A DNA stretch of 64,000 nucleotides from Odiellus spinosus (lineage: Eukaryota; Arthropoda; Arachnida; Opiliones; Phalangiidae): the NCBI GenBank assembly GCA_963920705.1, contig OY987240.1, forward strand, positions 3,416,501 to 3,480,500, given 5' to 3'. Each line of letters starts with the position of its first letter. Position 1 is the first letter of the stretch. The notes under the pieces were generated by a model. It saw only the letters and a list, made by a program, of their open reading frames with translations, made no database searches and had not been told where the DNA came from. This document shows, piece by piece, positions 3,722 to 59,251 of the stretch. The position numbers and the translations under genes were made by a program.

Positions 3722-6098
3722 TTGGTTCGAAAAACATCATTCGAAAAACATCATTCGAAAAACATCATTCGAAAAACATCATTCGAAAAACATCATTCGA
3801 AAAACATCATTCGAAAAACATCATTCGAAAAACATCATTCGAAAAACATCATTCGAAAAACATCATTCGAAAAACATCATTCGAAAAACATCATTCGAAA
3901 AACATCATTCGAAAAACATCAATCGAAAAACATCAATCGAAAAACTTGATTCGAAAAACTTGATTCGAAAAACATCATTCGAAAAACATCATTCGAAAAA
4001 CATCATTCGAAAAACATCATTCGAAAAACATCATTCGAAAAACATCATTCGAAAAACATCATTCGAAAAACATCATTCGAAAAACATCATTCGAAAAACA
4101 TCATTCGAAAATCATCATTCGAAAAACATCATTCGAAAAACATCATTCGAAAAACATCATTCGAAAAACATCATTCGAAAAACATCAATCGAAAAACATC
4201 AATCGAAAAACATCAATCGAAAAACATCATTCGAAAAACTTGATTCGAAAAACATCATTCGAAAAACATCATTCGAAAAACATCATTCGAAAACCATCAT
4301 TCGAAAAACATCATTCGAAAAACATCATTCGAAAAATGTCATTCGAAAAACATCATTCGAAAAACATGATTCGAAAAACATCATTCGAAAAACATCATTC
4401 GAAAAACATCATTCAAAAAACATCATTCGAAAAACATCATTCGAAAAACATCATTCGAAAAACATCAATCGAAAAACTTGATTCGAAAAACATCATTCGA
4501 AAAACATCATTCGAAAAACATCATTCGAAAAACATCATTCGAAAAACTTCATTCGAAAAACATCATTCGAAAAACATCATTCGAAAAACATGATTCGAAA
4601 AACATCATTCGAAAAACATCATTCGAAAAACATCAATCGAAAAACATCAATCGAAAAACTTGATTCAAAAAAATTGATTCGAAAACCATGATTCGAAAAA
4701 CATCATTCGAAAAACATCATTCGAAAAACATGATTCGAAAAACATGATTCGAAAAACATCATTCGAAAAACATCAATCGAAAAACATCAATCGAAAAACA
4801 TCATTCGAAAAACATCAATCGAAAAACTTGATTGGAAAAACTTGATTCGAAAAACATCATTCGAAAAACATGATTCGAAAAACATGATTCGAAAAACTTG
4901 ATTCGAAAAACATGATTCGAAAAACATCATTCGAAAAACATGATTCGAAAAACATCATTCGAAAAACATCATTCGAAAAACATCATTCAAAAAAGATCAT
5001 TCGAAAAACATCATTCGAAAAACATCATTCGAAAATCATCATTCGAAAAACATCATTCGAAAAACATCTTTCGAAAAACATCATTCGAAAAACATGATTC
5101 GAAAAACATCATTCGAAAAACATCATTCGAAAAACATGATTCGAAAAACATGATTCGAAAAACATCATTCGAAAAACATCAATCGAAAAACATCAATCGA
5201 AAAACATCATTCGAAAAACATTTTTCGAAAAACATCATTCGAAAAACATCATTCGAAAAACATCATTCGAAAAACATTATAAGAAAAACATAATTCGAAA
5301 AACATCATTCGAAAAACATCATTCGAAAAACATCATTCGAAAAACATCAATCGAAAAACTTGATTCGAAAAACATCATTCGAAAAACATGATTCGAAAAA
5401 CATCATTCGAAAAACATCATTCGAAAAACATCATTCGAAAAACATCATTCGAAAAACATTATAAGAAAAAAATAATTCGAAAAACATCATTCGAAAAACA
5501 TCATTCGAAAAACATCTTTCGAAAAACATCAATCGAAAAACTTGATTCGAAAAACATCATTCGAAAAACATGATTCGAAAAACATCATTCGAAAAACATC
5601 ATTCGAAAAACATCAATCGAAAAACATCAATCGAAAAACATCAATCGAAAAACATCATTCGAAAAACTTGATTCGAAAAACATCATTCGAAAAACATCAT
5701 TCGAAAAACATGATTCGAAAAACATGATTCGAAAAACATCATTCGAAAACCATCATTCGAAAAACCTCATTCGAAAAACATCATTCGAAAAAATTCATTC
5801 TAAAAACATCATTCGAAAAACATCATTCGAAATACATCATTCGAAAAACATTATTCGAAAAACATGATTCGAAAAACATCATTCGAAAAACATCATTCGA
5901 AAAACATTCGAAAAACATCATTCGAAAAACATCATTCGAAAAACATCATTCTAAAAATATCATTCGAAAAACATCATTCGAAAAACACCATTCGAAATAC
6001 ATCATTCGAAAAACATCATTCGAAAAGCATCATTCGAAAAACATTATTCGAAAAACATCATTCGAAAAACATCATTCGAAAAACATCAATCGAAAAAT
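3722..6098 (+). repeat. HOR copy, 2,377 bp, C2 type
   Basis: The V landmark is followed by 13 consensus monomers and QQLL, then the AAATGTC module, the AGATC module (GATC at 4995), the CATTATAAG modules near 5280 and 5460, and a C2 lead-in with the 11-bp monomer at 5906. The length equals 169 x 14 + 11. It is the left member of the 4.8-kb duplication, matching 8563-10911 with two one-monomer losses in the other copy. Confidence 0.8.
5906..5916 (+). repeat. 11-bp monomer (first of 20 in the C2 lead-in)
   Basis: ATTCGAAAAAC without the usual ATC, so the array phase shifts by 3 bp. The same shortened monomer in the same context begins at 10719, 16610, 18665, 22484, 25152, 27906, 30969, 33066, 33777, 36756, 39371, 41146, 43537, 46767, 49353, 50778, 53673, 55378 and 57852. 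Confidence 0.85.
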
Positions 6099-8562
6099 TT
6101 GGTTCGAAAAACATCATTCGAAAAACATCATTCGAAAAACATCATTCGAAAAACATCATTCGAAAAACATCATTCGAAAAACATCATTCGAAAAACATCA
6201 TTCGAAAAACATCATTCGAAAAACATCATTCGAAAAACATCATTCGAAAAACATCATTCGAAAAACATCATTCGAAAAACATCAATCGAAAAACATCAAT
6301 CGAAAAACTTGATTCGAAAAACTTGATTCGAAAAACATCATTCGAAAAACATCATTCGAAAAACATGATTCGAAAAACATCATTCGAAAAACATCATTCG
6401 AAAAACATCATTCGAAAAACATCATTCGAAAAACATCATTCGAAAAACATCATTCAAAAAACATCATTCGAAAAACATCATTCGAAAAACATCATTCGAA
6501 AAACATCAATCGAAAAACATCATTCGAAAAACATGATTCGAAAAACATCATTCGAAAAACATCAATCGAAAAACCTCATTCGAAAAACATCATTCGAAAA
6601 ACATCATTCGAAAAACATCATTCGAAAAACATCATTCGAAAAACATCATTCGAAAAACATCATTCGAAAATCATCATTCGAAAAACATCATTCGAAAAAC
6701 ATCATTCGAAAAACATCATTCGAAAAACATCATTCGAAAAACATCATTCGAAAATCATCATTCGAAAAACATCATTCGAAAAACATCATTCGAAAAACAT
6801 CATTCGAAAAACATGATTCGAAAAACATCACTCGAAAAACATCATTCGAAAAAAATCAATCGAAAAACTTGATTCGAAAAACTTGATTCGAAAAACATCA
6901 TTCGAAAAACATGATTCGAAAAACATCATTCGAAAAACATCATTCGAAAAACATCAATCGAAAAACATCAATCGAAAAGCATCAATCGAAAAACATCATT
7001 CGAAAAACATCAATCGAAAAACATCAATCGAAAAACTTGATTCGAAAAACTTGATTCGAAAAACATCATTCGAAAAACATCATTCGAAAAACATCATTCG
7101 AAAAACATCATTCGAAAAACATCATTCGAAAAACATCATTCGAAAAACATCATTCGAAAAACATCATTCGAAAAACATCATTCGAAAATCATCATTCGAA
7201 AAACATCATTCGAAAAACATCATTCGAAAAACATGATTCGAAAAACATCACTCGAAAAACATCATTCGAAAAACATCATTCGAAAAACATGATTCGAAAA
7301 ACATCATTCGAAAAACATCAATCGAAAAACTTGATTGGAAAAACTTGATTCGAAAAACATCATTCGAAAAACATGATTCGAAAAACATCATTCGAAAAAC
7401 ATCATTCGAAAAACATCAATCGAAAAACATCAATCGAAAAACATCAATCGAAAAACATCATTCGAAAAACTTGATTCGAAAAACATCATTCGAAAAACAT
7501 CATTCGAAAAACATCATTCGAAAACCATCATTCGAAAAACATCATTCGAAAAACATCATTCGAAAATCATCATTCGAAAAACATCATTCGAAAAACATCA
7601 TTCGAAAAACATCATTCGAAAAACATCATTCGAAAAACATCATTCGAAAATCATCATTCGAAAAACATCATTCGAAAAACATCATTCGAAAAACATGATT
7701 CGAAAAACATGATTCGAAAAACATCACTCGAAAAACATCATTCGAAAAAAATCAATCGAAAAACTTGATTCGAAAAACTTGATTCGAAAAACATCATTCG
7801 AAAAACATGATTCGAAAAACATCATTCGAAAAACATCATTCGAAAAACATCAATCGAAAAACATCAATCGAAAAACATCAATCGAAAAACATCATTCGAA
7901 AAACATCATTCGAAAATCATAATTCGAAAAACATCATTCGAAAAACATCATTCGAAAAACATCATTCGAAAAACATTATTCGAAAAACATCACTCGAAAA
8001 ACATCATTCCAAAAACATGATTCGAAAAACATGATTCGAAAAACATCTTTCGAAAAACATCAATCGAAAAACTTGATTCGAAAAACATCATTCGAAAAAC
8101 ATGATTCGAAAAACATCATTCGAAAAACATCATTCGAAAAACATCAATCGAAAAACATCAATCGAAAAACATCAATCGAAAAACATCATTCGAAAAACTT
8201 GATTCGAAAAACATCATTCGAAAAACATCATTCGAAAAACATGATTCGAAAAACATGATTCGAAAAACATCATTCGAAAACCATCATTCGAAAAACCTCA
8301 TTCGAAAAACATCATTCGAAAAAATTCATTCTAAAAACATCATTCGAAAAACATCATTCGAAATACATCATTCGAAAAACATTATTCGAAAAACATCATT
8401 CGAAATACATCATTCGAAAAACATTATTCGAAAAACATCATTCGAAAAACACCATTCGAAATACATCATTCGAAAAACATCATTCGAAAAGCATCATTCG
8501 AAAAACATCATTCGAAAAACATCATTCGAAAAACATCATTCGAAAAACATCAATCGAAAAAT
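6099..8562 (+). repeat. HOR copy, 2,464 bp, C1 type
   Basis: The run after V is 12 consensus monomers. The copy includes a Q monomer preceded by AAAAGC at about 6979, shared only with the position 4,827 bp downstream. At about 7005 the order jumps back to QQLL, which I read as the junction of the 4.84-kb tandem duplication. The lead-in from 8255 is C1, with no 11-bp monomer. The length is 176 x 14. Confidence 0.8.
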
Positions 8563-10911
8563 TTGGTTCGAAAAACATCATTCGAAAAACATCATTCGAA
8601 AAACATCATTCGAAAAACATCATTCGAAAAACATCATTCGAAAAACATCATTCGAAAAACATCATTCGAAAAACATCATTCGAAAAACATCATTCGAAAA
8701 ACATCATTCGAAAAACATCATTCGAAAAACATCATTCGAAAAACATCAATCGAAAAACATCAATCGAAAAACTTGATTCGAAAAACTTGATTCGAAAAAC
8801 ATCATTCGAAAAACATCATTCGAAAAACATCATTCGAAAAACATCATTCGAAAAACATCATTCGAAAAACATCATTCGAAAAACATCATTCGAAAAACAT
8901 CATTCGAAAAACATCATTCGAAAAACATCATTCGAAAATCATCATTCGAAAAACATCATTCGAAAAACATCATTCGAAAAACATCATTCGAAAAACATCA
9001 TTCGAAAAACATCAATCGAAAAACATCAATCGAAAAACATCAATCGAAAAACATCATTCGAAAAACTTGATTCGAAAAACATCATTCGAAAAACATCATT
9101 CGAAAAACATCATTCGAAAACCATCATTCGAAAAACATCATTCGAAAAACATCATTCGAAAAATGTCATTCGAAAAACATCATTCGAAAAACATGATTCG
9201 AAAAACATCATTCGAAAAACATCATTCGAAAAACATCATTCAAAAAACATCATTCGAAAAACATCATTCGAAAAACATCATTCGAAAAACATCAATCGAA
9301 AAACTTGATTCGAAAAACATCATTCGAAAAACATCATTCGAAAAACATCATTCGAAAAACATCATTCGAAAAACTTCATTCGAAAAACATCATTCGAAAA
9401 ACATCATTCGAAAAACATGATTCGAAAAACATCATTCGAAAAACATCATTCGAAAAACATCAATCGAAAAACATCAATCGAAAAACTTGATTCAAAAAAA
9501 TTGATTCGAAAACCATGATTCGAAAAACATCATTCGAAAAACATCATTCGAAAAACATGATTCGAAAAACATGATTCGAAAAACATCATTCGAAAAACAT
9601 CAATCGAAAAACATCAATCGAAAAACATCATTCGAAAAACATCAATCGAAAAACTTGATTGGAAAAACTTGATTCGAAAAACATCATTCGAAAAACATGA
9701 TTCGAAAAACATGATTCGAAAAACTTGATTCGAAAAACATGATTCGAAAAACATCATTCGAAAAACATGATTCGAAAAACATCATTCGAAAAACATCATT
9801 CGAAAAACATCATTCAAAAAAGATCATTCGAAAAACATCATTCGAAAAACATCATTCGAAAATCATCATTCGAAAAACATCATTCGAAAAACATCATTCG
9901 AAAAACATCATTCGAAAAACATGATTCGAAAAACATCATTCGAAAAACATGATTCGAAAAACATGATTCGAAAAACATCATTCGAAAAACATCAATCGAA
10001 AAACATCAATCGAAAAACATCATTCGAAAAACATTTTTCGAAAAACATCATTCGAAAAACATCATTCGAAAAACATCATTCGAAAAACATTATAAGAAAA
10101 ACATAATTCGAAAAACATCATTCGAAAAACATCATTCGAAAAACATCATTCGAAAAACATCAATCGAAAAACTTGATTCGAAAAACATCATTCGAAAAAC
10201 ATGATTCGAAAAACATCATTCGAAAAACATCATTCGAAAAACATCATTCGAAAAACATCATTCGAAAAACATTATAAGAAAAAAATAATTCGAAAAACAT
10301 CATTCGAAAAACATCATTCGAAAAACATCTTTCGAAAAACATCAATCGAAAAACTTGATTCGAAAAACATCATTCGAAAAACATGATTCGAAAAACATCA
10401 TTCGAAAAACATCATTCGAAAAACATCAATCGAAAAACATCAATCGAAAAACATCAATCGAAAAACATCATTCGAAAAACTTGATTCGAAAAACATCATT
10501 CGAAAAACATCATTCGAAAAACATGATTCGAAAAACATGATTCGAAAAACATCATTCGAAAACCATCATTCGAAAAACCTCATTCGAAAAACATCATTCG
10601 AAAAAATTCATTCTAAAAACATCATTCGAAAAACATCATTCGAAATACATCATTCGAAAAACATTATTCGAAAAACATGATTCGAAAAACATCATTCGAA
10701 AAACATCATTCGAAAAACATTCGAAAAACATCATTCGAAAAACATCATTCGAAAAACATCATTCTAAAAATATCATTCGAAAAACATCATTCGAAAAACA
10801 CCATTCGAAATACATCATTCGAAAAACATCATTCGAAAAGCATCATTCGAAAAACATTATTCGAAAAACATCATTCGAAAAACATCATTCGAAAAACATC
10901 AATCGAAAAAT
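8563..10911 (+). repeat. HOR copy, 2,349 bp, C2 type
   Basis: This has the same module order as 3722-6098: 12 consensus monomers after V, the AGATC site at 9822, CATTATAAG units near 10090 and 10270, and the 11-bp monomer at 10719. The length is 167 x 14 + 11. It differs from its partner by two missing monomers and a few substitutions, for example consensus instead of CATCTTTCG near 9890. Confidence 0.8.
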
Positions 10912-12493
10912 TTGGTTCGAAAAACATCATTCGAAAAACATCATTCGAAAAACATCATTCGAAAAACATCATTCGAAAAACATCATTCGAAAAACATCAT
11001 TCGAAAAACATCATTCGAAAAACATCATTCGAAAAACATCATTCGAAAAACATCATTCGAAAAACATCATTCGAAAAACATCATTCGAAAAACATCAATC
11101 GAAAAACATCAATCGAAAAACTTGATTCGAAAAACTTGATTCGAAAAACATCATTCGAAAAACATCATTCGAAAAACATGATTCGAAAAACATCATTCGA
11201 AAAACATCATTCGAAAAACATCATTCGAAAAACATCATTCGAAAAACATCATTCGAAAAACATCATTCGAAAAACATCATTCAAAAAACATCATTCGAAA
11301 AACATCATTCGAAAAACATCATTCGAAAAACATCAATCGAAAAACATCATTCGAAAAACATGATTCGAAAAACATCATTCGAAAAACATCAATCGAAAAA
11401 CCTCATTCGAAAAACATCATTCGAAAAACATCATTCGAAAAACATCATTCGAAAAACATCATTCGAAAAACATCATTCGAAAAACATCATTCGAAAATCA
11501 TCATTCGAAAAACATCATTCGAAAAACATCATTCGAAAAACATCATTCGAAAAACATCATTCGAAAAACATCATTCGAAAATCATCATTCGAAAAACATC
11601 ATTCGAAAAACATCATTCGAAAAACATCATTCGAAAAACATGATTCGAAAAACATCACTCGAAAAACATCATTCGAAAAAAATCAATCGAAAAACTTGAT
11701 TCGAAAAACTTGATTCGAAAAACATCATTCGAAAAACATGATTCGAAAAACATCATTCGAAAAACATCATTCGAAAAACATCAATCGAAAAACATCAATC
11801 GAAAAGCATCAATCGAAAAACATCATTCGAAAAACATCATTCGAAAATCATAATTCGAAAAACATCATTCGAAAAACATCATTCGAAAAACATCATTCGA
11901 AAAACATTATTCGAAAAACATCACTCGAAAAACATCATTCCAAAAACATGATTCGAAAAACATGATTCGAAAAACATCTTTCGAAAAACATCAATCGAAA
12001 AACTTGATTCGAAAAACATCATTCGAAAAACATGATTCGAAAAACATCATTCGAAAAACATCATTCGAAAAACATCAATCGAAAAACATCAATCGAAAAA
12101 CATCAATCGAAAAACATCATTCGAAAAACTTGATTCGAAAAACATCATTCGAAAAACATCATTCGAAAAACATGATTCGAAAAACATGATTCGAAAAACA
12201 TCATTCGAAAACCATCATTCGAAAAACCTCATTCGAAAAACATCATTCGAAAAAATTCATTCTAAAAACATCATTCGAAAAACATCATTCGAAATACATC
12301 ATTCGAAAAACATTATTCGAAAAACATCATTCGAAATACATCATTCGAAAAACATTATTCGAAAAACATCATTCGAAAAACACCATTCGAAATACATCAT
12401 TCGAAAAACATCATTCGAAAAGCATCATTCGAAAAACATCATTCGAAAAACATCATTCGAAAAACATCATTCGAAAAACATCAATCGAAAAAT
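10912..12493 (+). repeat. HOR copy, 1,582 bp, C1 type
   Basis: A shortened copy, 113 x 14 bp. The 12-monomer V run is followed by QQLL, the ATTCAAAA unit near 11280, two AAATCATC units, the AAAAGC-marked Q block near 11800, the 11962 block and a C1 lead-in from 12186. The AGATC and CATTATAAG modules are missing. Confidence 0.8.
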
Positions 12494-14243
12494 TTGGTTC
12501 GAAAAACATCATTCGAAAAACATCATTCGAAAAACATCATTCGAAAAACATCATTCGAAAAACATCATTCGAAAAACATCATTCGAAAAACATCATTCGA
12601 AAAACATCATTCGAAAAACATCATTCGAAAAACATCATTCGAAAAACATCATTCGAAAAACATCATTCGAAAAACATCATTCGAAAAACATCAATCGAAA
12701 AACATCAATCGAAAAACTTGATTCGAAAAACTTGATTCGAAAAACATCATTCGAAAAACATCATTCGAAAAACATCATTCGAAAAACATCATTCGAAAAA
12801 CATCATTCGAAAAACATCATTCGAAAAACATCATTCGAAAAACATCATTCGAAAAACATCATTCGAAAATCATCATTCGAAAAACATCATTCGAAAAACT
12901 TCATTCGAAAAACATGATTCGAAAAACATCACTCGAAAAACATCATTCGAAAAACATCATTCGAAAAACATGATTCGAAAAACATCATTCGAAAAACATC
13001 AATCGAAAAACTTGATTGGAAAAACTTGATTCGAAAAACATCATTCGAAAAACATGATTCGAAAAACATAATTCGAAAAACATCATTCGAAAAACATCAA
13101 TCGAAAAACATCAATCGAAAAACATCAATCGAAAAACATCATTCGAAAAACTTGATTCGAAAAACATCATTCGAAAAACATCATTCGAAAAACATCATTC
13201 GAAAACCATCATTCGAAAAACATCATTCGAAAAACATCATTCGAAAATCATCATTCGAAAAACATCATTCGAAAAACATCATTCGAAAAACATCATTCGA
13301 AAAACATCATTCGAAAAACATCATTCGAAAATCATCATTCGAAAAACATCATTCGAAAAACATCATTCGAAAAACATCATTCGAAAAACATGATTCGAAA
13401 AACATCACTCGAAAAACATCATTCGAAAAAAATCAATCGAAAAACTTGATTCGAAAAACTTGATTCGAAAAACATCATTCGAAAAACATGATTCGAAAAA
13501 CATCATTCGAAAAACATCATTCGAAAAACATCAATCGAAAAACATCAATCGAAAAACATCAATCGAAAAACATCATTCGAAAAACATCATTCGAAAATCA
13601 TAATTCGAAAAACATCATTCGAAAAACATCATTCGAAAAACATCATTCGAAAAACATTATTCGAAAAACATCACTCGAAAAACATCATTCCAAAAACATG
13701 ATTCGAAAAACATGATTCGAAAAACATCTTTCGAAAAACATCAATCGAAAAACTTGATTCGAAAAACATCATTCGAAAAACATGATTCGAAAAACATCAT
13801 TCGAAAAACATCATTCGAAAAACATCAATCGAAAAACATCAATCGAAAAACATCAATCGAAAAACATCATTCGAAAAACTTGATTCGAAAAACATCATTC
13901 GAAAAACATCATTCGAAAAACATGATTCGAAAAACATGATTCGAAAAACATCATTCGAAAACCATCATTCGAAAAACCTCATTCGAAAAACATCATTCGA
14001 AAAAATTCATTCTAAAAACATCATTCGAAAAACATCATTCGAAATACATCATTCGAAAAACATTATTCGAAAAACATCATTCGAAATACATCATTCGAAA
14101 AACATTATTCGAAAAACATCATTCGAAAAACACCATTCGAAATACATCATTCGAAAAACATCATTCGAAAAGCATCATTCGAAAAACATCATTCGAAAAA
14201 CATCATTCGAAAAACATCATTCGAAAAACATCAATCGAAAAAT
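12494..14243 (+). repeat. HOR copy, 1,750 bp, C1 type
   Basis: Length 125 x 14. The V run is 13 monomers, and the downstream order is nearly the same as 1958-3721, with the 13488, 13712 and 13936 blocks. This is the last copy with a C1 lead-in; all later long lead-ins are C2. Confidence 0.8.
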
Positions 14244-16816
14244 TTGGTTCGAAAAACATCATTCGAAAAACATCATTCGAAAAACATCATTCGAAAAACA
14301 TCATTCGAAAAACATCATTCGAAAAACATCATTCGAAAAACATCATTCGAAAAACATCATTCGAAAAACATCATTCGAAAAACATCATTCGAAAAACATC
14401 ATTCGAAAAACATCAATCGAAAAACATCAATCGAAAAACTTGATTCGAAAAACTTGATTCGAAAAACATCATTCGAAAAACATCATTCGAAAAACATCAT
14501 TCGAAAAACATCATTCGAAAAACATCATTCGAAAAACATCATTCGAAAAACATCATTCGAAAAACATCATTCGAAAAACATCATTCGAAAATCATCATTC
14601 GAAAAACATCATTCGAAAAACATCATTCGAAAAACATGATTCGAAAAACATCACTCGAAAAACATCATTCGAAAAACATCATTCGAAAAACATGATTCGA
14701 AAAACATCATTCGAAAAACATCAATCGAAAAACTTGATTGGAAAAACTTGATTCGAAAAACATCATTCGAAAAACATGATTCGAAAAACATCATTCGAAA
14801 AACATCATTCGAAAAACATCAATCGAAAAACATCAATCGAAAAACATCAATCGAAAAACATCATTCGAAAAACTTGATTCGAAAAACATCATTCGAAAAA
14901 CATCATTCGAAAAACATCATTCGAAAAACATCATTCGAAAAACATCATTCGAAAAACATCATTCGAAAAATGTCATTCGAAAAACATCATTCGAAAAACA
15001 TGATTCGAAAAACATCATTCGAAAAACATCATTCGAAAAACATCATTCAAAAAACATCATTCGAAAAACATCATTCGAAAAACATCATTCGAAAAACATC
15101 AATCGAAAAACTTGATTCGAAAAACATCATTCGAAAAACATCATTCGAAAAACATCATTCGAAAAACATCATTCGAAAAACTTCATTCGAAAAACATCAT
15201 TCGAAAAACATCATTCGAAAAACATGATTCGAAAAACATCATTCGAAAAACATCATTCGAAAAACATCAATCGAAAAACATCAATCGAAAAACTTGATTC
15301 AAAAAAATTGATTCGAAAACCATGATTCGAAAAACATCATTCGAAAAACATCATTCGAAAAACATGATTCGAAAAACATGATTCGAAAAACATCATTCGA
15401 AAAACATCAATCGAAAAACATCAATCGAAAAACATCATTCGAAAAACATCAATCGAAAAACTTGATTGGAAAAACTTGATTCGAAAAACATCATTCGAAA
15501 AACATGATTCGAAAAACATCATTCGAAAAACATCATTCGAAAAACATCATTCGAAAAACATCAATCGAAAAACATCAATCGAAAAACTTGATTCGAAAAA
15601 CTTGATTCGAAAAACATGATTCGAAAAAAATCATTCGAAAAACATGATTCGAAAAACATCATTCGAAAAACATCATTCGAAAAACATCATTCAAAAAAGA
15701 TCATTCGAAAAACATCATTCGAAAAACATCATTCGAAAATCATCATTCGAAAAACATCATTCGAAAAACATCATTCGAAAAACATCATTCGAAAAACATG
15801 ATTCGAAAAACATCATTCGAAAAACATCATTCGAAAAACATGATTCGAAAAACATGATTCGAAAAACATCATTCGAAAAACATCAATCGAAAAACATTAA
15901 TCGAAAAACATCATTCGAAAAACATTTTTCGAAAAACATCATTCGAAAAACATCATTCGAAAAACATCATTCGAAAAACATTATAAGAAAAACATAATTC
16001 GAAAAACATCATTCGAAAAACATCATTCGAAAAACATCATTCGAAAAACATCAATCGAAAAACTTGATTCGAAAAACATCATTCGAAAAACATGATTCGA
16101 AAAACATCATTCGAAAAACATCATTCGAAAAACATCATTCGAAAAACATCATTCGAAAAACATTATAAGAAAAAAATAATTCGAAAAACATCATTCGAAA
16201 AACATCATTCGAAAAACATCTTTCGAAAAACATCAATCGAAAAACTTGATTCGAAAAACATCATTCGAAAAACATGATTCGAAAAACATCATTCGAAAAA
16301 CATCATTCGAAAAACATCAATCGAAAAACATCAATCGAAAAACATCAATCGAAAAACATCATTCGAAAAACTTGATTCGAAAAACATCATTCGAAAAACA
16401 TCATTCGAAAAACATGATTCGAAAAACATGATTCGAAAAACATCATTCGAAAACCATCATTCGAAAAACCTCATTCGAAAAACGTCATTCGAAAAAATTC
16501 ATTCTAAAAACATCATTCGAAAAACATCATTCGAAATACATCATTCGAAAAACATTATTCGAAAAACATGATTCGAAAAACATCATTCGAAAAACATCAT
16601 TCGAAAAACATTCGAAAAACATCATTCGAAAAACATCATTCGAAAAACATCATTCGAAAAACATCATTCTAAAAATATCATTCGAAAAACATCATTCGAA
16701 AAACACCATTCGAAATACATCATTCGAAAAACATCATTCGAAAAGCATCATTCGAAAAACATCATTCGAAAAACATCATTCGAAAAACATCATTCGAAAA
16801 ACATCAATCGAAAAAT
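14244..16816 (+). repeat. HOR copy, 2,573 bp, C2 type
   Basis: Length 183 x 14 + 11. The V run is 11 monomers. It holds the AAATGTC module near 14967, the AGATC unit (GATC at 15699), CATTATAAG units near 15980 and 16160, and the 11-bp monomer at 16610. Private changes include CATTAATCG near 15897 and AACGTC near 16482. Confidence 0.8.
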
Positions 16817-21800: not shown

Positions 21801-22690
21801 TTTCGAAAAACATCATTCGAAAAACATCATTCGAAAAACATCATTCGAAAAACATCATTCGAAAAACATTATAAGAAAAACATAATTCGAAAAACATCAT
21901 TCGAAAAACATCATTCGAAAAACATCATTCGAAAAACATCAATCGAAAAACTTGATTCGAAAAACATCATTCGAAAAACATGATTCGAAAAACATCATTC
22001 GAAAAACATCATTCGAAAAACATCATTCGAAAAACATTATAAGAAAAAAATAATTCGAAAAACATCATTCGAAAAACATCATTCGAAAAACATCTTTCGA
22101 AAAACATCAATCGAAAAACTTGATTCGAAAAACATCATTCGAAAAACATGATTCGAAAAACATCATTCGAAAAACATCATTCGAAAAACATCAATCGAAA
22201 AACATCAATCGAAAAACATCAATCGAAAAACATCATTCGAAAAACTTGATTCGAAAAACATCATTCGAAAAACATCATTCGAAAAACATGATTCGAAAAA
22301 CATGATTCGAAAAACATCATTCGAAAACCATCATTCGAAAAACCTCATTCGAAAAACATCATTCGAAAAAATTCATTCTAAAAACATCATTCGAAAAACA
22401 TCATTCGAAATACATCATTCGAAAAACATTATTCGAAAAACATGATTCGAAAAACATCATTCGAAAAACATCATTCGAAAAACATTCGAAAAACATCATT
22501 CGAAAAACATCATTCGAAAAACATCATTCGAAAAACATCATTCTAAAAATATCATTCGAAAAACATCATTCGAAAAACACCATTCGAAATACATCATTCG
22601 AAAAACATCATTCGAAAAGCATCATTCGAAAAACATCATTCGAAAAACATCATTCGAAAAACATCATTCGAAAAACATCAATCGAAAAAT
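18886..22690 (+). repeat. HOR copy, 3,805 bp, lengthened, C2 type
   Basis: The longest V-to-V interval with both ends exact (271 x 14 + 11) that does not span a lost landmark. The extra length comes from repeated middle modules: AAATGTC appears near 19625 and 19863, and the CTTCATTCG block recurs near 20074 and 20957. The 11-bp monomer is at 22484 and the GATC site at 21573. Confidence 0.8.
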
Positions 22691-46973: not shown

Positions 46974-47673
46974 TTGGTTCGAAAAACATCATTCGAAAAA
47001 CATCATTCGAAAAACATCATTCGAAAAACATCATTCGAAAAACATCATTCGAAAAACATCATTCGAAAAACATCATTCGAAAAACATCATTCGAAAAACA
47101 TCATTCGAAAAACATCATTCGAAAAACATCATTCGAAAAACATCATTCGAAAAACATCATTCGAAAAACATCAATCGAAAAACATCAATCGAAAAACTTG
47201 ATTCGAAAAACTTGATTCGAAAAACATCATTCGAAAAACATCATTCGAAAAACATGATTCGAAAAACATCATTCGAAAAACATCATTCGAAAAACATCAT
47301 TCGAAAAACATCATTCGAAAAACATCATTCGAAAAACATCATTCGAAAATCATCATTCGAAAAACATCATTCGAAAAACATCATTCGAAAAACATGATTC
47401 GAAAAACATCACTCGAAAAACATCATTCGAAAAACATCATTCGAAAAACATGATTCGAAAAACATCATTCGAAAAACATCAATCGAAAAACATCATTCGA
47501 AAAACATCAATCGAAAAACATCATTCGAAAAACATCATTCGAAAAACATGATTCGAAAAACACCATTCGAAATACATCATTCGAAAAACATCATTCGAAA
47601 AGCATCATTCGAAAAACATCATTCGAAAAACATCATTCGAAAAACATCATTCGAAAAACATCAATCGAAAAAT
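46974..47673 (+). repeat. Short HOR copy, 700 bp, C3 type
   Basis: Exactly 50 x 14. After the V run, QQLL and one AAATCATC unit, an unusual H-Q-H-Q alternation near 47467-47510 leads into the D-CACC junction at 47548. That point is the junction of the 2,614-bp duplication. Confidence 0.8.
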
Positions 47674-49559
47674 TTGGTTCGAAAAACATCATTCGAAAAA
47701 CATCATTCGAAAAACATCATTCGAAAAACATCATTCGAAAAACATCATTCGAAAAACATCATTCGAAAAACATCATTCGAAAAACATCATTCGAAAAACA
47801 TCATTCGAAAAACATCATTCGAAAAACATCAATCGAAAAACATCAATCGAAAAACTTGATTCGAAAAACTTGATTCGAAAAACATCATTCGAAAAACATC
47901 ATTCGAAAAACATGATTCGAAAAACATCATTCGAAAAACATCATTCGAAAAACATCATTCGAAAAACATCATTCGAAAATCATCATTCGAAAAACATCAT
48001 TCGAAAAACATCATTCGAAAAACATCATTCGAAAAACATGATTCGAAAAACATCACTCGAAAAACATCATTCGAAAAACATCATTCGAAAAACATGATTC
48101 GAAAAACATCATTCGAAAAACATCAATCGAAAAACTTGATTGGAAAAACTTTATTCGAAAAACATCATTCGAAAAACATGATTCGAAAACATCATTCGAA
48201 AAACATCATTCGAAAAACATCAATCGAAAAACATCAATCGAAAAACATCAATCGAAAAACATCATTCGAAAAACTTGATTCGAAAAACATCATTCGAAAA
48301 ACATCATTCGAAAACCATCATTCGAAAAACATCATTCGAAAAACATCATTCGAAAAATGTCATTTGAAAAACATCATTCGAAAAACATGATTCGAAAAAC
48401 ATCATTCGAAAAACATCATTCGAAAAACATCATTCAAAAAACATCATTCGAAAAACATCATTCGAAAAACATCATTCGAAAAACATCAATCGAAAAACTT
48501 GATTCGAAAAACATCATTCGAAAAACATCATTCGAAAAACATCATTCGAAAAACATCATTCGAAAAACTTCATTCGAAAAACATCATTCGAAAAACATCA
48601 TTCGAAAAACATGATTCGAAAAACATCATTCGAAAAACATCATTCGAAAAACATCAATCGAAAAACATCAATCGAAAAACTTGATTCGAAAAACTTGATT
48701 CGAAAAACATGATTCGAAAAACATCATTCGAAAAACATCATTCGAAAAACATGATTCGAAAAACATCATTCGAAAAACATCATTCGAAAAACATCAATCG
48801 AAAAACATCAATCGAAAAACATCAATCGAAAAACATCATTCGAAAAACATCATTCGAAAATCATAATTCGAAAAACATCATTCGAAAAACATCATTCGAA
48901 AAACATCATTCGAAAAACATTATTCGAAAAACATCACTCGAAAAACATCATTCGAAAAACATGATTCGAAAAACATGATTCGAAAAACATCTTTCGAAAA
49001 ACATCAATCGAAAAACTTGATTCGAAAAACATCATTCGAAAAACATGATTCGAAAAACATCATTCGAAAAACATCATTCGAAAAACATCAATCGAAAAAC
49101 ATCAATCGAAAAACATCAATCGAAAAACATCATTCGAAAAACTTGATTCGAAAAACATCATTCGAAAAACATCATTCGAAAAACATGATTCGAAAAACAT
49201 GATTCGAAAAACATCATTCGAAAACCATCATTCGAAAAACCTCATTCGAAAAACATCATTCGAAAAAATTCATTCTAAAAACATCATTCGAAAAACATCA
49301 TTCGAAATACATCATTCGAAAAACATTATTCGAAAAACATCATTCGAAAAACATTCGAAAAACATCATTCGAAAAACATCATTCGAAAAACATCATTCGA
49401 AAAACATCATTCTAAAAATATCATTCGAAAAACATCATTCGAAAAACACCATTCGAAATACATCATTCGAAAAACATCATTCGAAAAGCATCATTCGAAA
49501 AACATCATTCGAAAAACATCATTCGAAAAACATCATTCGAAAAACATCAATCGAAAAAT
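47674..49559 (+). repeat. HOR copy, 1,886 bp, C2 type
   Basis: The second member of the 2,614-bp duplication: 133 x 14 + 11 + 13. It differs from the 45060 copy by two missing monomers near 49335, just before the 11-bp monomer at 49353. The 13-bp monomer is at 48181. Confidence 0.8.
48181..48193 (+). repeat. 13-bp monomer
   Basis: Duplicate of the shortened monomer at 45567. Confidence 0.85.
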
Positions 49560-50984
49560 TTGGTTCGAAAAACATCATTCGAAAAACATCATTCGAAAAA
49601 CATCATTCGAAAAACATCATTCGAAAAACATCATTCGAAAAACATCATTCGAAAAACATCATTCGAAAAACATCATTCGAAAAACATCATTCGAAAAACA
49701 TCATTCGAAAAACATCATTCGAAAAACATCATTCGAAAAACATCATTCGAAAAACATCAATCGAAAAACATCAATCGAAAAACTTGATTCGAAAAACTTG
49801 ATTCGAAAAACATCATTCGAAAAACATCATTCGAAAAACATGATTCGAAAAACATCATTCGAAAAACATCATTCGAAAAACATCATTCGAAAAACATCAT
49901 TCGAAAAACATCATTCGAAAAACATCATTCGAAAATCATCATTCGAAAAACATCATTCGAAAAACATCATTCGAAAAACATGATTCGAAAAACATCACTC
50001 GAAAAACATCATTCGAAAAACATCATTCGAAAAACATGATTCGAAAAACATCATTCGAAAAACATCAATCGAAAAACATCATTCGAAAAACATCAATCGA
50101 AAAACTTGATTGGAAAAACTTGATTCGAAAAACATCATTCGAAAAACATGATTCGAAAAACATCATTCGAAAAACATCATTCGAAAAACATCAATCGAAA
50201 AACATCAATCGAAAAACATCAATCGAAAAACATCATTCGAAAAACTTGATTCAAAAAACATCATTCGAAAAACATCATTCGAAAAACATCATTCGAAAAA
50301 CATCATTCGAAAAACATTATTCGAAAAACATCACTCGAAAAACATCATTCGAAAAACATGATTCGAAAAACATGATTCGAAAAACATCTTTCGAAAAACA
50401 TCAATCGAAAAACTTGATTCGAAAAACATCATTCGAAAAACATGATTCGAAAAACATCATTCGAAAAACATCATTCGAAAAACATCAATCGAAAAACATC
50501 AATCGAAAAACATCAATCGAAAAACATCATTCGAAAAACTTGATTCGAAAAACATCATTCGAAAAACATCATTCGAAAAACATGATTCGAAAAACATGAT
50601 TCGAAAAACATCATTCGAAAACCATCATTCGAAAAACCTCATTCGAAAAACATCATTCGAAAAAATTCATTCTAAAAACAGCATTCGAAAAACATCATTC
50701 GAAATACATCATTCGAAAAACATTATTCGAAAAACATGATTCGAAAAACATCATTCGAAAAACATCATTCGAAAAACATTCGAAAAACATCATTCGAAAA
50801 ACATCATTCGAAAAACATCATTCGAAAAACATCATTCTAAAAATATCATTCGAAAAACATCATTCGAAAAACACCATTCGAAATACATCATTCGAAAAAC
50901 ATCATTCGAAAAGCATCATTCGAAAAACATCATTCGAAAAACATCATTCGAAAAACATCATTCGAAAAACATCAATCGAAAAAT
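49560..50984 (+). repeat. HOR copy, 1,425 bp, C2 type
   Basis: Length 101 x 14 + 11. The first part, to about 50100, repeats 46974-47515 including the H-Q-H-Q alternation. It then continues into TTGATTGG, the QQQ block, CATTATT plus CACTCG, CATCTTTCG and a lead-in with the 11-bp monomer at 50778. A private CAGCATTCG lies near 50679. Confidence 0.8.
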
Positions 50985-51239
50985 TTGGTTCGAAAAACAT
51001 CATTCGAAAAACATCATTCGAAAAACATCATTCGAAAAACATCATTCGAAAAACATCATTCGAAAAACATCATTCGAAAAACATCATTCGAAAAACATCA
51101 TTCGAAAAACATCATTCGAAAAACATCATTCGAAAAACATCATTCGAAAAACATCATTCGAAAAACATCATTCGAAAAACATCATTCGAAAAACATCAAT
51201 CGAAAAACATCAATCGAAAAACTTGATTCGAAAAACTTG
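50985..51239 (+). repeat. HOR module 1: V landmark, consensus run, QQLL
   Basis: TTTGGTTCG is followed by 14 consensus monomers, then two CATCAATCG and two CTTGATTCG monomers. Run length is the most variable property among copies (6 to 18). Confidence 0.75.
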
Positions 51240-51530
51240 ATTCGAAAAACATCATTCGAAAAACATCATTCGAAAAACATGATTCGAAAAACATCATTCG
51301 AAAAACATCATTCGAAAAACATCATTCGAAAAACATCATTCGAAAAACATCATTCGAAAAACATCATTCGAAAATCATCATTCGAAAAACATCATTCGAA
51401 AAACATCATTCGAAAAACATGATTCGAAAAACATCACTCGAAAAACATCATTCGAAAAACATCATTCGAAAAACATGATTCGAAAAACATCATTCGAAAA
51501 ACATCAATCGAAAAACTTGATTGGAAAAAC
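51240..51530 (+). repeat. HOR module 2: AAATCATC and CACTCG block
   Basis: Order: HHD, six H, AAATCATC near 51374, D, CACTCG near 51434, HH, D, H, Q, then TTGATTGG near 51518. The same tail (CACTCG to TTGATTGG) occurs again in module 4, so modules 2 and 4 look like an old duplication. Confidence 0.7.
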
Positions 51531-52104
51531 TTGATTCGAAAAACATCATTCGAAAAACATGATTCGAAAAACATCATTCGAAAAACATCATTCGAAAAAC
51601 ATCAATCGAAAAACATCAATCGAAAAACATCAATCGAAAAACATCATTCGAAAAACTTGATTCGAAAAACATCATTCGAAAAACATCATTCGAAAAACAT
51701 CATTCGAAAACCATCATTCGAAAAACATCATTCGAAAAACATCATTCGAAAAATGTCATTCGAAAAACATCATTCGAAAAACATGATTCGAAAAACATCA
51801 TTCGAAAAACATCATTCGAAAAACATCATTCAAAAAACATCATTCGAAAAACATCATTCGAAAAACATCATTCGAAAAACATCAATCGAAAAACTTGATT
51901 CGAAAAACATCATTCGAAAAACATCATTCGAAAAACATCATTCGAAAAACATCATTCGAAAAACTTCATTCGAAAAACATCATTCGAAAAACATCATTCG
52001 AAAAACATCATTCGAAAAACATCATTCGAAAAACATCATTCGAAAAACATCAATCGAAAAACATCAATCGAAAAACTTGATTCAAAAAACTTGATTCGAA
52101 AAAC
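51531..52104 (+). repeat. HOR module 3: AAACCATC, AAATGTC, ATTCAAAA, CTTCATTCG block
   Basis: Order: L-H-D-HH-QQQ-H-L, AAACCATC near 51710, AAATGTC near 51754, D, ATTCAAAA near 51830, Q-L, CTTCATTCG near 51964, QQ, then L with ATTCAAAA near 52081. It is one of the most frequently re-used modules in the window, seen in at least 14 places. Confidence 0.7.
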
Positions 52105-52356
52105 ATGATTCGAAAAACATCATTCGAAAAACATCATTCGAAAAACATCATTCGAAAAACATCATTCGAAAAACATCATTCGAAAATCATCATTCGAAAA
52201 ACATCATTCGAAAAACATCATTCGAAAAACATCATTCGAAAAACATGATTCGAAAAACATCACTCGAAAAACATCATTCGAAAAACATCATTCGAAAAAC
52301 ATGATTCGAAAAACATCATTCGAAAAACATCAATCGAAAAACTTGATTGGAAAAAC
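52105..52356 (+). repeat. HOR module 4: second AAATCATC and CACTCG block
   Basis: Begins at a D monomer, then five H, AAATCATC near 52186, four H, D, CACTCG near 52260, HH, D, H, Q and TTGATTGG near 52346. It mirrors module 2 apart from H counts and the missing QQLL. Confidence 0.7.
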
Positions 52357-53060
52357 TTGATTCGAAAAACATCATTCGAAAAACATCATTCGAAAAACAT
52401 GATTCGAAAAACATCATTCGAAAAACATCATTCGAAAAACATCATTCGAAAAACATCAATCGAAAAACATCATTCGAAAAACATCAATCGAAAAACATCA
52501 ATCGAAAAACTTGATTCGAAAAACTTGATTCGAAAAACATCATTCGAAAAACATCATTCGAAAAACATGATTCGAAAAACATCATTCGAAAAACATCATT
52601 CGAAAAACATCATTCGAAAAACATCAATCGAAAAACATCAATCGAAAAACTTGATTCGAAAAACTTGATTCGAAAAACATGATTCGAAAAACATCATTCG
52701 AAAAACATGATTCGAAAAACATCATTCGAAAAACATCATTCGAAAAACATCATTCGAAAAAGATCATTCGAAAAACATCATTCGAAAAACATCATTCGAA
52801 AATCATCATTCGAAAAACATCATTCGAAAAACATCATTCGAAAAACATCATTCGAAAAACATGATTCGAAAAACATCATTCGAAAAACATCATTCGAAAA
52901 ACATGATTCGAAAAACATGATTCGAAAAACATCATTCGAAAAACATCAATCGAAAAACATCAATCGAAAAACATCATTCGAAAAACATTTTTCGAAAAAC
53001 ATCATTCGAAAAACATCATTCGAAAAACATCATTCGAAAAACATTATAAGAAAAACATAA
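52357..53060 (+). repeat. HOR module 5: AGATC, CATTTTTCG, first CATTATAAG block
   Basis: In this copy the front is enlarged by extra QQLL groups (52500-52670). From 52679 comes D-H-D, the AGATC monomer (GATC at 52762), AAATCATC near 52802, D, D-D, QQ, CATTTTTCG near 52985 and CATTATAAG near 53041 followed by CATAATTCG. Confidence 0.7.
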
Positions 53061-53315
53061 TTCGAAAAACATCATTCGAAAAACATCATTCGAAAAACAT
53101 CATTCGAAAAACATCAATCGAAAAACTTGATTCGAAAAACATCATTCGAAAAACATGATTCGAAAAACATCATTCGAAAAACATCATTCGAAAAACATCA
53201 TTCGAAAAACATCATTCGAAAAACATTATAAGAAAAACATAATTCGAAAAACATCATTCGAAAAACATCATTCGAAAAACATCTTTCGAAAAACATCAAT
53301 CGAAAAACTTGATTC
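53061..53315 (+). repeat. HOR module 6: second CATTATAAG and CATCTTTCG block
   Basis: Order: HHH, Q, L, H, D at 53155, four H, CATTATAAG near 53223, CATAATTCG, HH, CATCTTTCG near 53280, Q, L. In copies before about 24 kb the monomer after CATTATAAG reads AAATAATTCG rather than ACATAATTCG, a substitution that separates early from late copies. Confidence 0.7.
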
Positions 53316-53496
53316 GAAAAACATCATTCGAAAAACATGATTCGAAAAACATCATTCGAAAAACATAATTCGAAAAACATCAATCGAAAAACATCAATCG
53401 AAAAACATCAATCGAAAAACATCATTCGAAAAACTTGATTCGAAAAACATCATTCGAAAAACATCATTCGAAAAACATGATTCGAAAAACATGATT
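53316..53496 (+). repeat. HOR module 7: QQQ-H-L-HH-DD block
   Basis: Order: H, D, H, CATAATTCG (consensus in most copies), three Q, H, L, HH, then two D monomers. The CATAATTCG here is shared only with the copy 1,705 bp downstream. Confidence 0.7.
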
Positions 53497-53879
53497 CGAA
53501 AAACATCATTCGAAAACCATCATTCGAAAAACCTCATTCGAAAAACATCATTCGAAAAAATTCATTCTAAAAACATCATTCGAAAAACATCATTCGAAAT
53601 ACATCATTCGAAAAACATTATTCGAAAAACATGATTCGAAAAACATCATTCGAAAAACATCATTCGAAAAACATTCGAAAAACATCATTCGAAAAACATC
53701 ATTCGAAAAACATCATTCGAAAAACATCATTCTAAAAATATCATTCGAAAAACATCATTCGAAAAACACCATTCGAAATACATCATTCGAAAAACATCAT
53801 TCGAAAAGCATCATTCGAAAAACATCATTCGAAAAACATCATTCGAAAAACATCATTCGAAAAACATCAATCGAAAAAT
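53497..53879 (+). repeat. HOR module 8: C2 lead-in with 11-bp monomer
   Basis: Order: H, AAACCATC, CCTCATTCG, H, AAAATTC plus ATTCTAAA, HH, AAATAC, CATTATT, D, HH, the 11-bp monomer at 53673, four H, ATTCTAAA plus ATATC, HH, CACCATTCG with AAATAC, HH, AAAAGC, four H, Q, ending at V. It occurs 20 times with only small changes. Confidence 0.75.
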
Positions 53880-55584
53880 TTGGTTCGAAAAACATCATTC
53901 GAAAAACATCATTCGAAAAACATCATTCGAAAAACATCATTCGAAAAACATAATTCGAAAAACATAATTCGAAAAACATCATTCGAAAAACATCATTCGA
54001 AAAACATCATTCGAAAAACATCATTCGAAAAACATCATTCGAAAAACATCATTCGAAAAACATCATTCGAAAAACATCATTCGAAAAACATCAATCGAAA
54101 AACATCAATCGAAAAACTTGATTCGAAAAACTTGATTCGAAAAACATCATTCGAAAAACATCATTCGAAAAACATGATTCGAAAAACATCATTCGAAAAA
54201 CATCATTCGAAAAACATCAATCGAAAAACATCAATCGAAAAACATCATTCGAAAAACATCATTCGAAAAACATTATAAGAAAAACATAATTCGAAAAACA
54301 TCATTCGAAAAACATCATTCGAAAAACATCTTTCGAAAAACATCAATCGAAAAACTTGATTCGAAAAACATCATTCGAAAAACATGATTCGAAAAACATC
54401 ATTCGAAAAACATGATTCGAAAAACATCATTCGAAAAACATCATTCGAAAAACATCATTCGAAAAAGATCATTCGAAAAACATCATTCGAAAAACATCAT
54501 TCGAAAATCATCATTCGAAAAACATCATTCGAAAAACATCATTCGAAAAACATCATTCGAAAAACATGATTCGAAAAACATCATTCGAAAAACATCATTC
54601 GAAAAACATGATTCGAAAAACATGATTCGAAAAACATCATTCGAAAAACATCAATCGAAAAACATCAATCGAAAAACATCATTCGAAAAACATTTTTCGA
54701 AAAACATCATTCGAAAAACATCATTCGAAAAACATCATTCGAAAAACATTATAAGAAAAACATAATTCGAAAAACATCATTCGAAAAACATCATTCGAAA
54801 AACATCATTCGAAAAACATCAATCGAAAAACTTGATTCGAAAAACATCATTCGAAAAACATGATTCGAAAAACATCATTCGAAAAACATCATTCGAAAAA
54901 CATCATTCGAAAAACATCATTCGAAAAACATTATAAGAAAAACATAATTCGAAAAACATCATTCGAAAAACATCATTCGAAAAACATCTTTCGAAAAACA
55001 TCAATCGAAAAACTTGATTCGAAAAACATCATTCGAAAAACATGATTCGAAAAACATCATTCGAAAAACATAATTCGAAAAACATCAATCGAAAAACATC
55101 AATCGAAAAACATCAATCGAAAAACATCATTCGAAAAACTTGATTCGAAAAACATCATTCGAAAAACATCATTCGAAAAACATGATTCGAAAAACATGAT
55201 TCGAAAAACATCATTCGAAAACCATCATTCGAAAAACCTCATTCGAAAAACATCATTCGAAAAAATTCATTCTAAAAACATCATTCGAAAAACATCATTC
55301 GAAATACATCATTCGAAAAACATTATTCGAAAAACATGATTCGAAAAACATCATTCGAAAAACATCATTCGAAAAACATTCGAAAAACATCATTCGAAAA
55401 ACATCATTCGAAAAACATCATTCGAAAAACATCATTCTAAAAATATCATTCGAAAAACATCATTCGAAAAACACCATTCGAAATACATCATTCGAAAAAC
55501 ATCATTCGAAAAGCATCATTCGAAAAACATCATTCGAAAAACATCATTCGAAAAACATCATTCGAAAAACATCAATCGAAAAAT
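53880..55584 (+). repeat. HOR copy, 1,705 bp, C2 type
   Basis: Length 121 x 14 + 11. The V run contains two adjacent CATAATTCG monomers at 53949. At about 54238 the order jumps to a CATTATAAG segment and then at 54384 to module 5. The copy is the period of the 1,705-bp duplication; 11-bp monomer at 55378, GATC at 54467. Confidence 0.8.
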
Positions 55585-58030
55585 TTAGTTCGAAAAACAT
55601 CATTCGAAAAACATCATTCGAAAAACATCATTCGAAAAACATCATTCGAAAAACATAATTCGAAAAACATAATTCGAAAAACATCATTCGAAAAACATCA
55701 TTCGAAAAACATCATTCGAAAAACATCATTCGAAAAACATCATTCGAAAAACATCATTCGAAAAACATCATTCGAAAAACATCATTCGAAAAACATCAAT
55801 CGAAAAACATCAATCGAAAAACTTGATTCGAAAAACTTGATTCGAAAAACATCATTCGAAAAACATCATTCGAAAAACATGATTCGAAAAACATCATTCG
55901 AAAAACATCATTCGAAAAACATCAATCGAAAAACATCAATCGAAAAACATCAATCGAAAAACATCATTCGAAAAACTTGATTCGAAAAACATCATTCGAA
56001 AAACATCATTCGAAAAACATCATTCGAAAACCATCATTCGAAAAACATCATTCGAAAAACATCATTCGAAAAACATGATTCGAAAAACATCATTCGAAAA
56101 ACATCAATCGAAAAACTTGATTGGAAAAACTTGATTCGAAAAACATCATTCGAAAAACATGATTCGAAAAACATCATTCGAAAAACATTATTCGAAAAAC
56201 ATGAATCGAAAAACATCAATCGAAAAACATCAATCGAAAAACATCATTCGAAAAACTTGATTCGAAAAACATCATTCAAAAACATCATTCGAAAAACATC
56301 ATTCGAAAACCATCATTCGAAAAACATCATTCGAAAAACATCATTCGAAAAATGTCATTCGAAAAACATCATTCGAAAAACATGATTCGAAAAACATCAT
56401 TCGAAAAACATCATTCGAAAAACATCATTCAAAAAACATCATTCGAAAAACATCATTCGAAAAACATCATTCGAAAAACATCAATCGAAAAACTTGATTC
56501 GAAAAACATCATTCGAAAAACATCATTCGAAAAACATCATTCGAAAAACATCATTCGAAAAACTTCATTCGAAAAACATCATTCGAAAAACATCATTCGA
56601 AAAACATGATTCGAAAAACATCATTCGAAAAACATCATTCGAAAAACATCAATCGAAAAACATCAATCGAAAAACTTGATTCAAAAAACTTGATTCGAAA
56701 AACATGATTCGAAAAACATCAATCGAAAAACTTGATTCGAAAAACATCATTCGAAAAACATCATTCGAAAAACATCATTCGAAAAACCTCATTCGAAAAA
56801 CATCATTCGAAAAACATCATTCGAAAAACATCATTCGAAAAACATGATTCGAAAAACATCATTCGAAAAACATCAATCGAAAAACCTCATTCGAAAAACA
56901 TGATTCGAAAAACATCATTCGAAAAACATCATTCGAAAAACATCATTCGAAAAACATCATTCGAAAAACATCATTCGAAAAACATCATTCGAAAATCATC
57001 ATTCGAAAAACATCATTCGAAAAACATCATTCGAAAAACATCATTCGAAAAACATCATTCGAAAAACATCATTCGAAAATCATCATTCGAAAAACATCAT
57101 TCGAAAAACATCATTCGAAAAACATCATTCGAAAAACATGATTCGAAAAACATCACTCGAAAAACATCATTCGAAAAAAATCAATCGAAAAACTTGATTC
57201 GAAAAACTTGATTCGAAAAACATGATTCGAAAAACATCATTCGAAAAACATCATTCGAAAAACTTCAATCGAAAAACATCAATCGAAAAACATCAATCGA
57301 AAAACATCATTCGAAAAACATCATTCGAAAATCATAATTCGAAAAACATCATTCGAAAAACATCATTCGAAAAACATCATTCGAAAAACATTATTCGAAA
57401 AACATCACTCGAAAAACATCATTCGAAAAACATGATTCGAAAAACATGATTCGAAAAACATCTTTCGAAAAACATCAATCGAAAAACTTGATTCGAAAAA
57501 CATCATTCGAAAAACATGATTCGAAAAACATCATTCGAAAAACATCATTCGAAAAACATCAATCGAAAAACATCAATCGAAAAACATCAATCGAAAAACA
57601 TCATTCGAAAAACTTGATTCGAAAAACATCATTCGAAAAACATCATTCGAAAAACATGATTCGAAAAACATGATTCGAAAAACATCATTCGAAAACCATC
57701 ATTCGAAAAACCTCATTCGAAAAACATCATTCGAAAAAATTCATTCTAAAAACATCATTCGAAAAACATCATTCGAAATACATCATTCGAAAAACATTAT
57801 TCGAAAAACATGATTCGAAAAACATCATTCGAAAAACATCATTCGAAAAACATTCGAAAAACATCATTCGAAAAACATCATTCGAAAAACATCATTCGAA
57901 AAATATCATTCGAAAAACATCATTCGAAAAACACCATTCGAAATACATCATTCGAAAAACATCATTCGAAAAGCATCATTCGAAAAACATCATTCGAAAA
58001 ACATCATTCGAAAAACATCAATCGAAAAAT
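55585..58030 (+). repeat. HOR copy, 2,446 bp, altered V landmark
   Basis: The V landmark here reads TTTAGTTCG, a private change. The CATAATTCG pair recurs at 55654, exactly 1,705 bp after its partner. A 13-bp monomer lies at 56274 and the 11-bp monomer at 57852. The length is 173 x 14 + 11 + 13. It includes the block at 57222 and module 3. Confidence 0.8.
56274..56286 (+). repeat. 13-bp monomer
   Basis: ATTCAAAAACATC. Related copies have ATTCAAAAAACATC at this place, so one A was lost from the A run. Confidence 0.8.
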
Positions 58031-59251
58031 TTGGTTCGAAAAACATCATTCGAAAAACATCATTCGAAGAACATCATTCGAAAAACATCATTCGAAAAAC
58101 ATCATTCGAAAAACATCATTCGAAAAACATCATTCGAAAAACATCATTCGAAAAACATCATTCGAAAAACATCATTCGAAAAACATCATTCGAAAAACAT
58201 CATTCGAAAAACATCATTCGAAAAACATCATTCGAAAAACATCATTCGAAAAACATCAATCGAAAAACATCTATCGAAAAACTTGATTCGAAAAACTTGA
58301 TTCGAAAAACATCATTCGAAAAACATCATTCGAAAAACATCATTCGAAAAACATCATTCGAAAAACATCATTCGAAAAACATCATTCGAAAAACATCATT
58401 CGAAAATCATCATTCGAAAAACATCATTCGAAAAACATCATTCGAAAAACATGATTCGAAAAACATCACTCGAAAAACATCATTCGAAAAACATCATTCG
58501 AAAAACATGATTCGAAAAACATCATTCGAAAAACATCAATCGAAAAACTTGATTGGAAAAACTTGATTCGAAAAACATCATTCGAAAAACATGATTCGAA
58601 AAACATCATTCGAAAAACATCATTCGAAAAACATCAATCGAAAAACATCAATCGAAAAACATCAATCGAAAAACATCATTCGAAAAACTTGATTCGAAAA
58701 ACATCATTCGTAAAACATCATTCGAAAAACATCATTCGAAAACCATCATTCGAAAAACATCATTCGAAAAACATCATTCGAAAAATGTCATTCGAAAAAC
58801 ATCATTCGAAAAACATGATTCGAAAAACATCATTCGAAAAACATCATTCGAAAAACATCATTCAAAAAACATCATTCGAAAAACATCATTCGAAAAACAT
58901 CATTCGAAAAACATCAATCGAAAAACTTGATTCGAAAAACATCATTCGAAAAACATCATTCGAAAAACATCATTCGAAAAACATCATTCGAAAAACTTCA
59001 TTCGAAAAACATCATTCGAAAAACATCATTCGAAAAACATGATTCGAAAAACATCATTCGAAAAACATCATTCGAAAAACATCAATCGAAAAACATCAAT
59101 CGAAAAACTTGATTCAAAAAACTTGATTCGAAAAACATGATTCGAAAAACATCATTCGAAAAACATCATTCGAAAAACATCATTCGAAAAACATCATTCG
59201 AAAAACATCATTCGAAAATCATCATTCGAAAAACATCATTCGAAAAACATC

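Follow-up and report, generated by a model that had tools for sequence, protein, structure and literature searches.

Introduction

The closest described relatives of the satellite reported here are found in the human genome. Arrays of the 5-bp monomer GAATG carry higher-order repeats (HORs) of 3360 and 3600 bp on Yq11.1 and Yq12, as described in the excerpted text of PMC2588610, which by our own arithmetic corresponds to ~700 monomers per HOR unit. A 3.6-kb DYZ1 unit and a 1.77-kb HSat2 unit are described in the excerpt of PMC4022460. In alpha satellite, ordered variants of a 171-bp monomer are repeated blockwise, and the same excerpt of PMC2588610 says that HOR structure correlates with centromere function; the array described below is known from its sequence alone. 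Among the papers listed in literature searches for a 14-bp satellite or a 14-bp HOR, there was no relevant case, as judged from titles and the opening of abstracts.

The locus analyzed here (the window) is a stretch of 64 kb, C18:3416501-3480500, in a genome of 443 Mb and 286 contigs. With human satellite III (DYZ1, 3.6 kb; Yq11.1, 3.36-kb HOR), it shares a very short monomer, kilobase-sized units of hundreds of monomers, and an HOR that covers only part of the array (PMC2588610, excerpt). It differs in its 14-bp monomer, its irregular unit length, and the presence of two alternative middles; sequence and organism are unrelated, and the monomer is TCGAAAAACATCAT and not the GAATG/CATTC of satellite III/DYZ1. 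The likeness to the 1.77-kb HSat2 unit of chromosome 1 is a multimeric kilobase unit within a simple satellite (PMC4022460, excerpt), but HSat2 has a highly diverged GAATG basis (PMC2588610, excerpt), whereas random pairs of monomers are 92.4% alike in the higher-order domain described here. The likeness to alpha satellite is the blockwise repetition of ordered variants; the difference is the length of the monomer. HORs of short monomers are therefore of a kind already known, contrary to an earlier note on this DNA that had called them unusual, and the array is a further, irregular member of that kind. General knowledge of HORs is unchanged by it, since human 5-bp satellites already show kilobase HORs. 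What the locus appears to offer is a contiguous case of higher-order structure arising and decaying in a satellite with a very short monomer, with distinct domains side by side, one of which holds two unit types in near-equal numbers.

Results

The window lies within one large non-coding satellite array. Tandem Repeats Finder reported a single array over bases 3-64000, with a period of 14, 4576 copies, and 93% matches. The window is thus one long head-to-tail array of a single short monomer, as is characteristic of satellite DNA (Table 1). Non-consensus monomers make up 44% of the window and rare monomers 18%. We discarded the possibility that the satellite is coding, as each of the three forward frames of the window contains 298-304 stops.

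Table 1. Features of the 14-bp satellite in the window (positions counted from the first letter of the window)
Feature	Position	Strand	Remarks
14-bp satellite array	1..64000	+	consensus TCGAAAAACATCAT, with the monomer given here as GAAAAACATCATTC; 4576 copies
26 exact V landmarks	3721..58038	+	monomer GAAAAATTTGGTTC
V-like monomer, one mismatch	1951..1964	+	GAAAAATTTGATTC
V-like monomer, one mismatch	55578..55591	+	GAAAAATTTAGTTC
A, B, A, B interval run	3721..12493	+	many matches at a lag of 345-346 monomers (~4.8 kb)
Alternative middle (type B), 64-monomer model copy	35461..36356	+	replaces reference positions ~82-163
Reference higher-order unit, V to V	50978..53872	+	207 monomers (2895 bp)

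Exact copies of the consensus dimer number 14,548 in the whole genome, all on the same strand, and 5339 of them lie within 278 kb at C18:3262501-3540500. At the dimer density of six samples taken farther to the right, the remaining matches would need ~539 kb, which places the end of the array near 4.08 Mb. Samples at 3.6, 3.7, 3.8, 3.9, 4.0, and 4.04 Mb are satellite, and samples at 4.08, 4.12, 4.16, 4.2, 4.5, and 5.0 Mb are not. With a start at about C18:3277801 and an end between 4040600 and 4080001, the array measures roughly 0.76-0.80 Mb and can hold every dimer copy in the genome. Judging by the dimer counts, the satellite is probably absent from all other loci. An exact search with a 28-mer gave no match in GTDB genomes and IMG/VR contigs, and megablast, which filters simple repeats, gave none for the first 8 kb against phages.

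At its start, the 14-bp array borders on a second satellite, which has spacings of ~367 and 384 bp (L010:1-5299; C18:2913444 onward). Exact copies of a 27-mer from this neighbor number 2777 forward and 817 reverse genome-wide, and the 100 matches listed are all on C18. Lying beside this neighbor, the array may have a heterochromatic, perhaps pericentromeric, setting. The array is interrupted by a 21.4-kb insert at C18:3289212-3310596 (L020-L022), which we take to resemble a Polinton/Maverick element; three of five scanned frames match Pfam (rve integrase, viral/organellar type B DNA polymerase, and, weakly, Pox_A32) and two match nothing. A perfect 694-nt inverted repeat lies in the insert region, at L022:4381-6030.

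The earlier note had reported 26 exact copies of the landmark TTTGGTTCG (V) and 28 recurrences in all. All 26 exact copies were found in the window; 100 dinucleotide shuffles gave a mean of 0.70 copies and a largest count of 4. Together with two in-register V-like monomers of one mismatch each, they would give the 28. The coordinates in the note were off by one (first match, 3721; last, 58030-58038). Genome-wide, the 40 exact matches to a 30-base V pattern, all of them listed, lie at C18:3414907-3513754, so that every exact V pattern is confined to one domain of 99 kb. The spacing between V landmarks in the window (n = 25) ranges from 700 to 4726 bp, with 2 of 25 within 2.7-2.9 kb. Over the whole domain (n = 39), the median is 2335 bp and the range is 196-7234 bp; 3 spacings fall within 2.7-2.9 kb and 14 within 2.0-2.9 kb. 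Still, the landmarks are placed more regularly than at random, with a coefficient of variation (CV) of 0.62 versus 0.98 for random placement (P = 0.0006). For 8 of 27 further variants (8-110 copies each in the domain), the median spacing is 2.28-2.64 kb; for the rest it lies between 0.6 and 3.9 kb. The higher-order unit has a second marker in GAAAAACATTC, a monomer shortened by a 3-base deletion. It occurs 21 times in the window (at 5904, 10717, and elsewhere); 13 of these copies sit 208 bp before an exact V and 5 more sit 180-222 bp before one.

Because global autocorrelation of the monomers of the window was without a clear period, we used local diagonals, a circular Viterbi model, and landmark statistics. 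The reference unit of the model (Table 1) follows the earlier note, which had named it the fullest copy. The circular model built from it accounts for 85.3% of the window outside the unit itself and for 0.0% in every one of five Markov shuffles. In 20-kb stretches along C18, it covers 0.0% in all four at 3312000-3392000, 9.1% at 3392000, 65.7% at 3412000, 77.6-91.6% between 3432000 and 3512000, and, from 3512000 on, 24.2% and then 10.0% in the two final right-hand stretches. Permutation of the window in blocks of 10 monomers left 59-63% explained in three of three permutations, and therefore short shared words carry much of the fit; the score fell from 0.70 to 0.16 nats per monomer. Seven alternative reference stretches explain 47-84%, and therefore the chosen unit, although the best of the eight, is not unique.

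Near-identical stretches (at least 36 identical monomers out of 40) number 7865 in the window, whereas one Markov shuffle gave 0. The lags between them vary widely; the most frequent are 273, 150, 187, 127, and 346 monomers, and none is dominant. Phase coherence falls to 0.16 at a distance of 150 monomers and to 0.06 at one of 207 monomers, with 0.14-0.16 at 2.1-2.3 kb and 0.06-0.08 at 2.8-2.9 kb, to be compared with a random-shift baseline of 0.09 on average and 0.19 at most. Coherence is lost within about one unit and no long-range periodicity survives; the order of the monomers is local and not a running period. The model yields 194 segments with a median of 25 monomers. Of the phase jumps between them, 147 are forward (deletion-like) and 46 backward (duplication-like), and many comprise one or a few monomers; junctions from reference to reference alone gave 102 forward and 53 backward jumps.

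These results bear on the earlier proposal of an HOR with a period of 2.7-2.9 kb in different ways. With the V-to-V unit taken as reference, the ordered variants do recur cyclically around V, but without a fixed unit length. The period itself is not borne out, given the 3 of 39 spacings in that range and a coherence there at baseline. The diagonals that a comparison of the letter string was expected to give are abundant, but their lags are diverse and none at 2.7-2.9 kb dominates. The absence of any preferred long period, which had been named as evidence against an HOR, is nearly what we observed for a fixed period and not what we observed for recurring ordered blocks. Overall, the observation was largely right and its interpretation partly right. 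Conditional on the model, there is an ordered block whose copies are more alike than random pairs of monomers; head-to-tail blocks of constant length were not found, as spacing and loss of coherence show. This part of the array is built on a higher-order unit of ~190-207 monomers, and "higher-order repeat" is a fair name for it.

Extending the model to the reference plus one alternative module, applied to C18:3405000-3520000, explained 88.6% of the sequence, to which the reference contributed 75.8% and the module 12.8%. Copy number, given as means of 10 positions, is 30-41 at reference positions 0-79 and 31-41 from 160 on, and these two arms are shared. It is 24 and 15 at positions 80-99 and 2 at positions 100-109. 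Middle A (positions 110-159) is present in 16-23 copies and middle B in 15-21, with 6 in its first eight monomers, and the two therefore sum to about the level of the arms. Positions ~100-109 are nearly private to the reference unit, and thirteen junctions skip positions 99-111, which suggests that the common A-type unit has ~194 monomers (2.7 kb). Of the 39 landmark intervals, 11 contain A, 13 contain B, 8 contain both, and 7 contain neither. In the A, B, A, B run, the pair of A plus B was duplicated jointly. The copies of the HOR are thus trimmed, rearranged, and of two types, and do not form a regular HOR of 2.7-2.9 kb.

At homologous positions, identity is 99.4%, versus 92.4% for random monomer pairs, the former value being biased upward by its restriction to model-matched positions. 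Identity is 99.55% within 1.5 kb and 99.37-99.43% beyond 6 kb; with so flat a relation to distance, a burst fits better than slow local exchange. At positions with at least 15 copies, 117 of 174 minority variants are singletons, which is compatible with recent expansion. Of 18 variants found in at least three and at most half of the copies, 6 are spatially clustered (P ≤ 0.05).

Neighboring domains use different monomer vocabularies. We compared informative 12-monomer words in 10-kb bins, with overlap taken over the smaller set. Within the V domain (bins 3410500 to 3520500), 14-51% of the words are common, whereas the domain and the nine bins spanning 3310500-3400500 have 0-1% in common. A transitional bin, at 3400500, overlaps with the V domain at 3-17%. 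On the right, two bins overlap with the domain at 0-2%, or at 4-6% in the case of its last bin. The bins on the left side fall into separate groups, whose common recurrence distances are mostly 0.8-3.75 kb, with some greater ones.

Discussion

Our data point to an ancestral block that was amplified by homology-guided exchange and subsequently trimmed and reshuffled, an account of the locus that we regard as likely. In our model, a block of ~190-207 variant monomers (2.7-2.9 kb) would have been amplified about 40-fold across ~100 kb, with local sequence homology guiding the unequal exchange or tandem segmental duplication involved, and an alternative version of its middle third may have spread as well. 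Ongoing deletions and duplications, nearly always of whole 14-bp monomers, would have trimmed and reshuffled the copies, so that local cyclic order was kept and a fixed long period is absent. Other stretches of the array may have been amplified from other founder blocks, giving rise to separate higher-order domains.

Alternatively, there may never have been an ancestral unit, and overlapping duplications of random length at random places may have left shared words that resemble one. The many junctions between short segments, the diversity of lags, the success of other references, and the fit that survives block permutation all agree with this idea. However, copy number is fairly even along the unit and the two middles are complementary. 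Furthermore, phase jumps at the junctions average 24 monomers, far below the 52 of permuted segments (0 of 5000 permutations as low), and the spacing is too regular. In a small, unfitted simulation with 4 runs per setting, the median landmark-spacing CV was 0.90-0.97 for random-length exchange and 0.50-0.60 for homology-guided exchange, compared with 0.62 observed; a CV of ≤0.62 was reached by 7-9% and 52-64% of simulated variants, respectively. The simulated arrays ended with 70-75% non-founder monomers versus 44% non-consensus monomers in the window, and therefore the simulation is illustrative only and shows that homology-guided exchange is workable. On this evidence, we consider an array without any founding unit unlikely.

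Since near-identical satellite is difficult to assemble, mis-joined, collapsed, or expanded copies could also have shaped what we see, and such errors would be compatible with the other readings. Yet the 278 kb contain zero N, the domains are distinct, and the copies carry many differing private junctions and variants, whereas collapse would tend toward exact copies; an artefact of assembly is accordingly very unlikely. To a regular 2.7-2.9 kb HOR comparable to those of alpha satellite, as first proposed, we give hardly any credence, because the 2895-bp reference unit and the 3 (or, within 2.0-2.9 kb, 14) of 39 conforming spacings stand against the median and range of the spacing, the missing dominant lag, and a baseline coherence at 2.8-2.9 kb.

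Within the account of an amplified and reshuffled block, it is imaginable, if rather doubtful, that the two unit types compete in one 100-kb domain in a fluid higher-order state, with copies ~99.4% identical. If so, one unit type would be in the course of being replaced by another through homology-guided exchange, and the replacement would have been caught in a satellite present at just one genomic locus.

Two further observations concern other parts of the genome. Nine of 13 COX1 matches lie on C17, where those examined contain stops in the mitochondrial code, and the full gene is on C286; the C17 matches are probably nuclear copies of mitochondrial DNA. COX1 reads as an open frame in the invertebrate mitochondrial code, which, along with the abundance of TTAGG, suggests an arthropod genome. 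Exact TTAGG 20-mers number 8096 forward and 3600 reverse in the whole genome, and the 100 matches listed are scattered across the first 15.4 Mb of C1, where they are thus largely interstitial.
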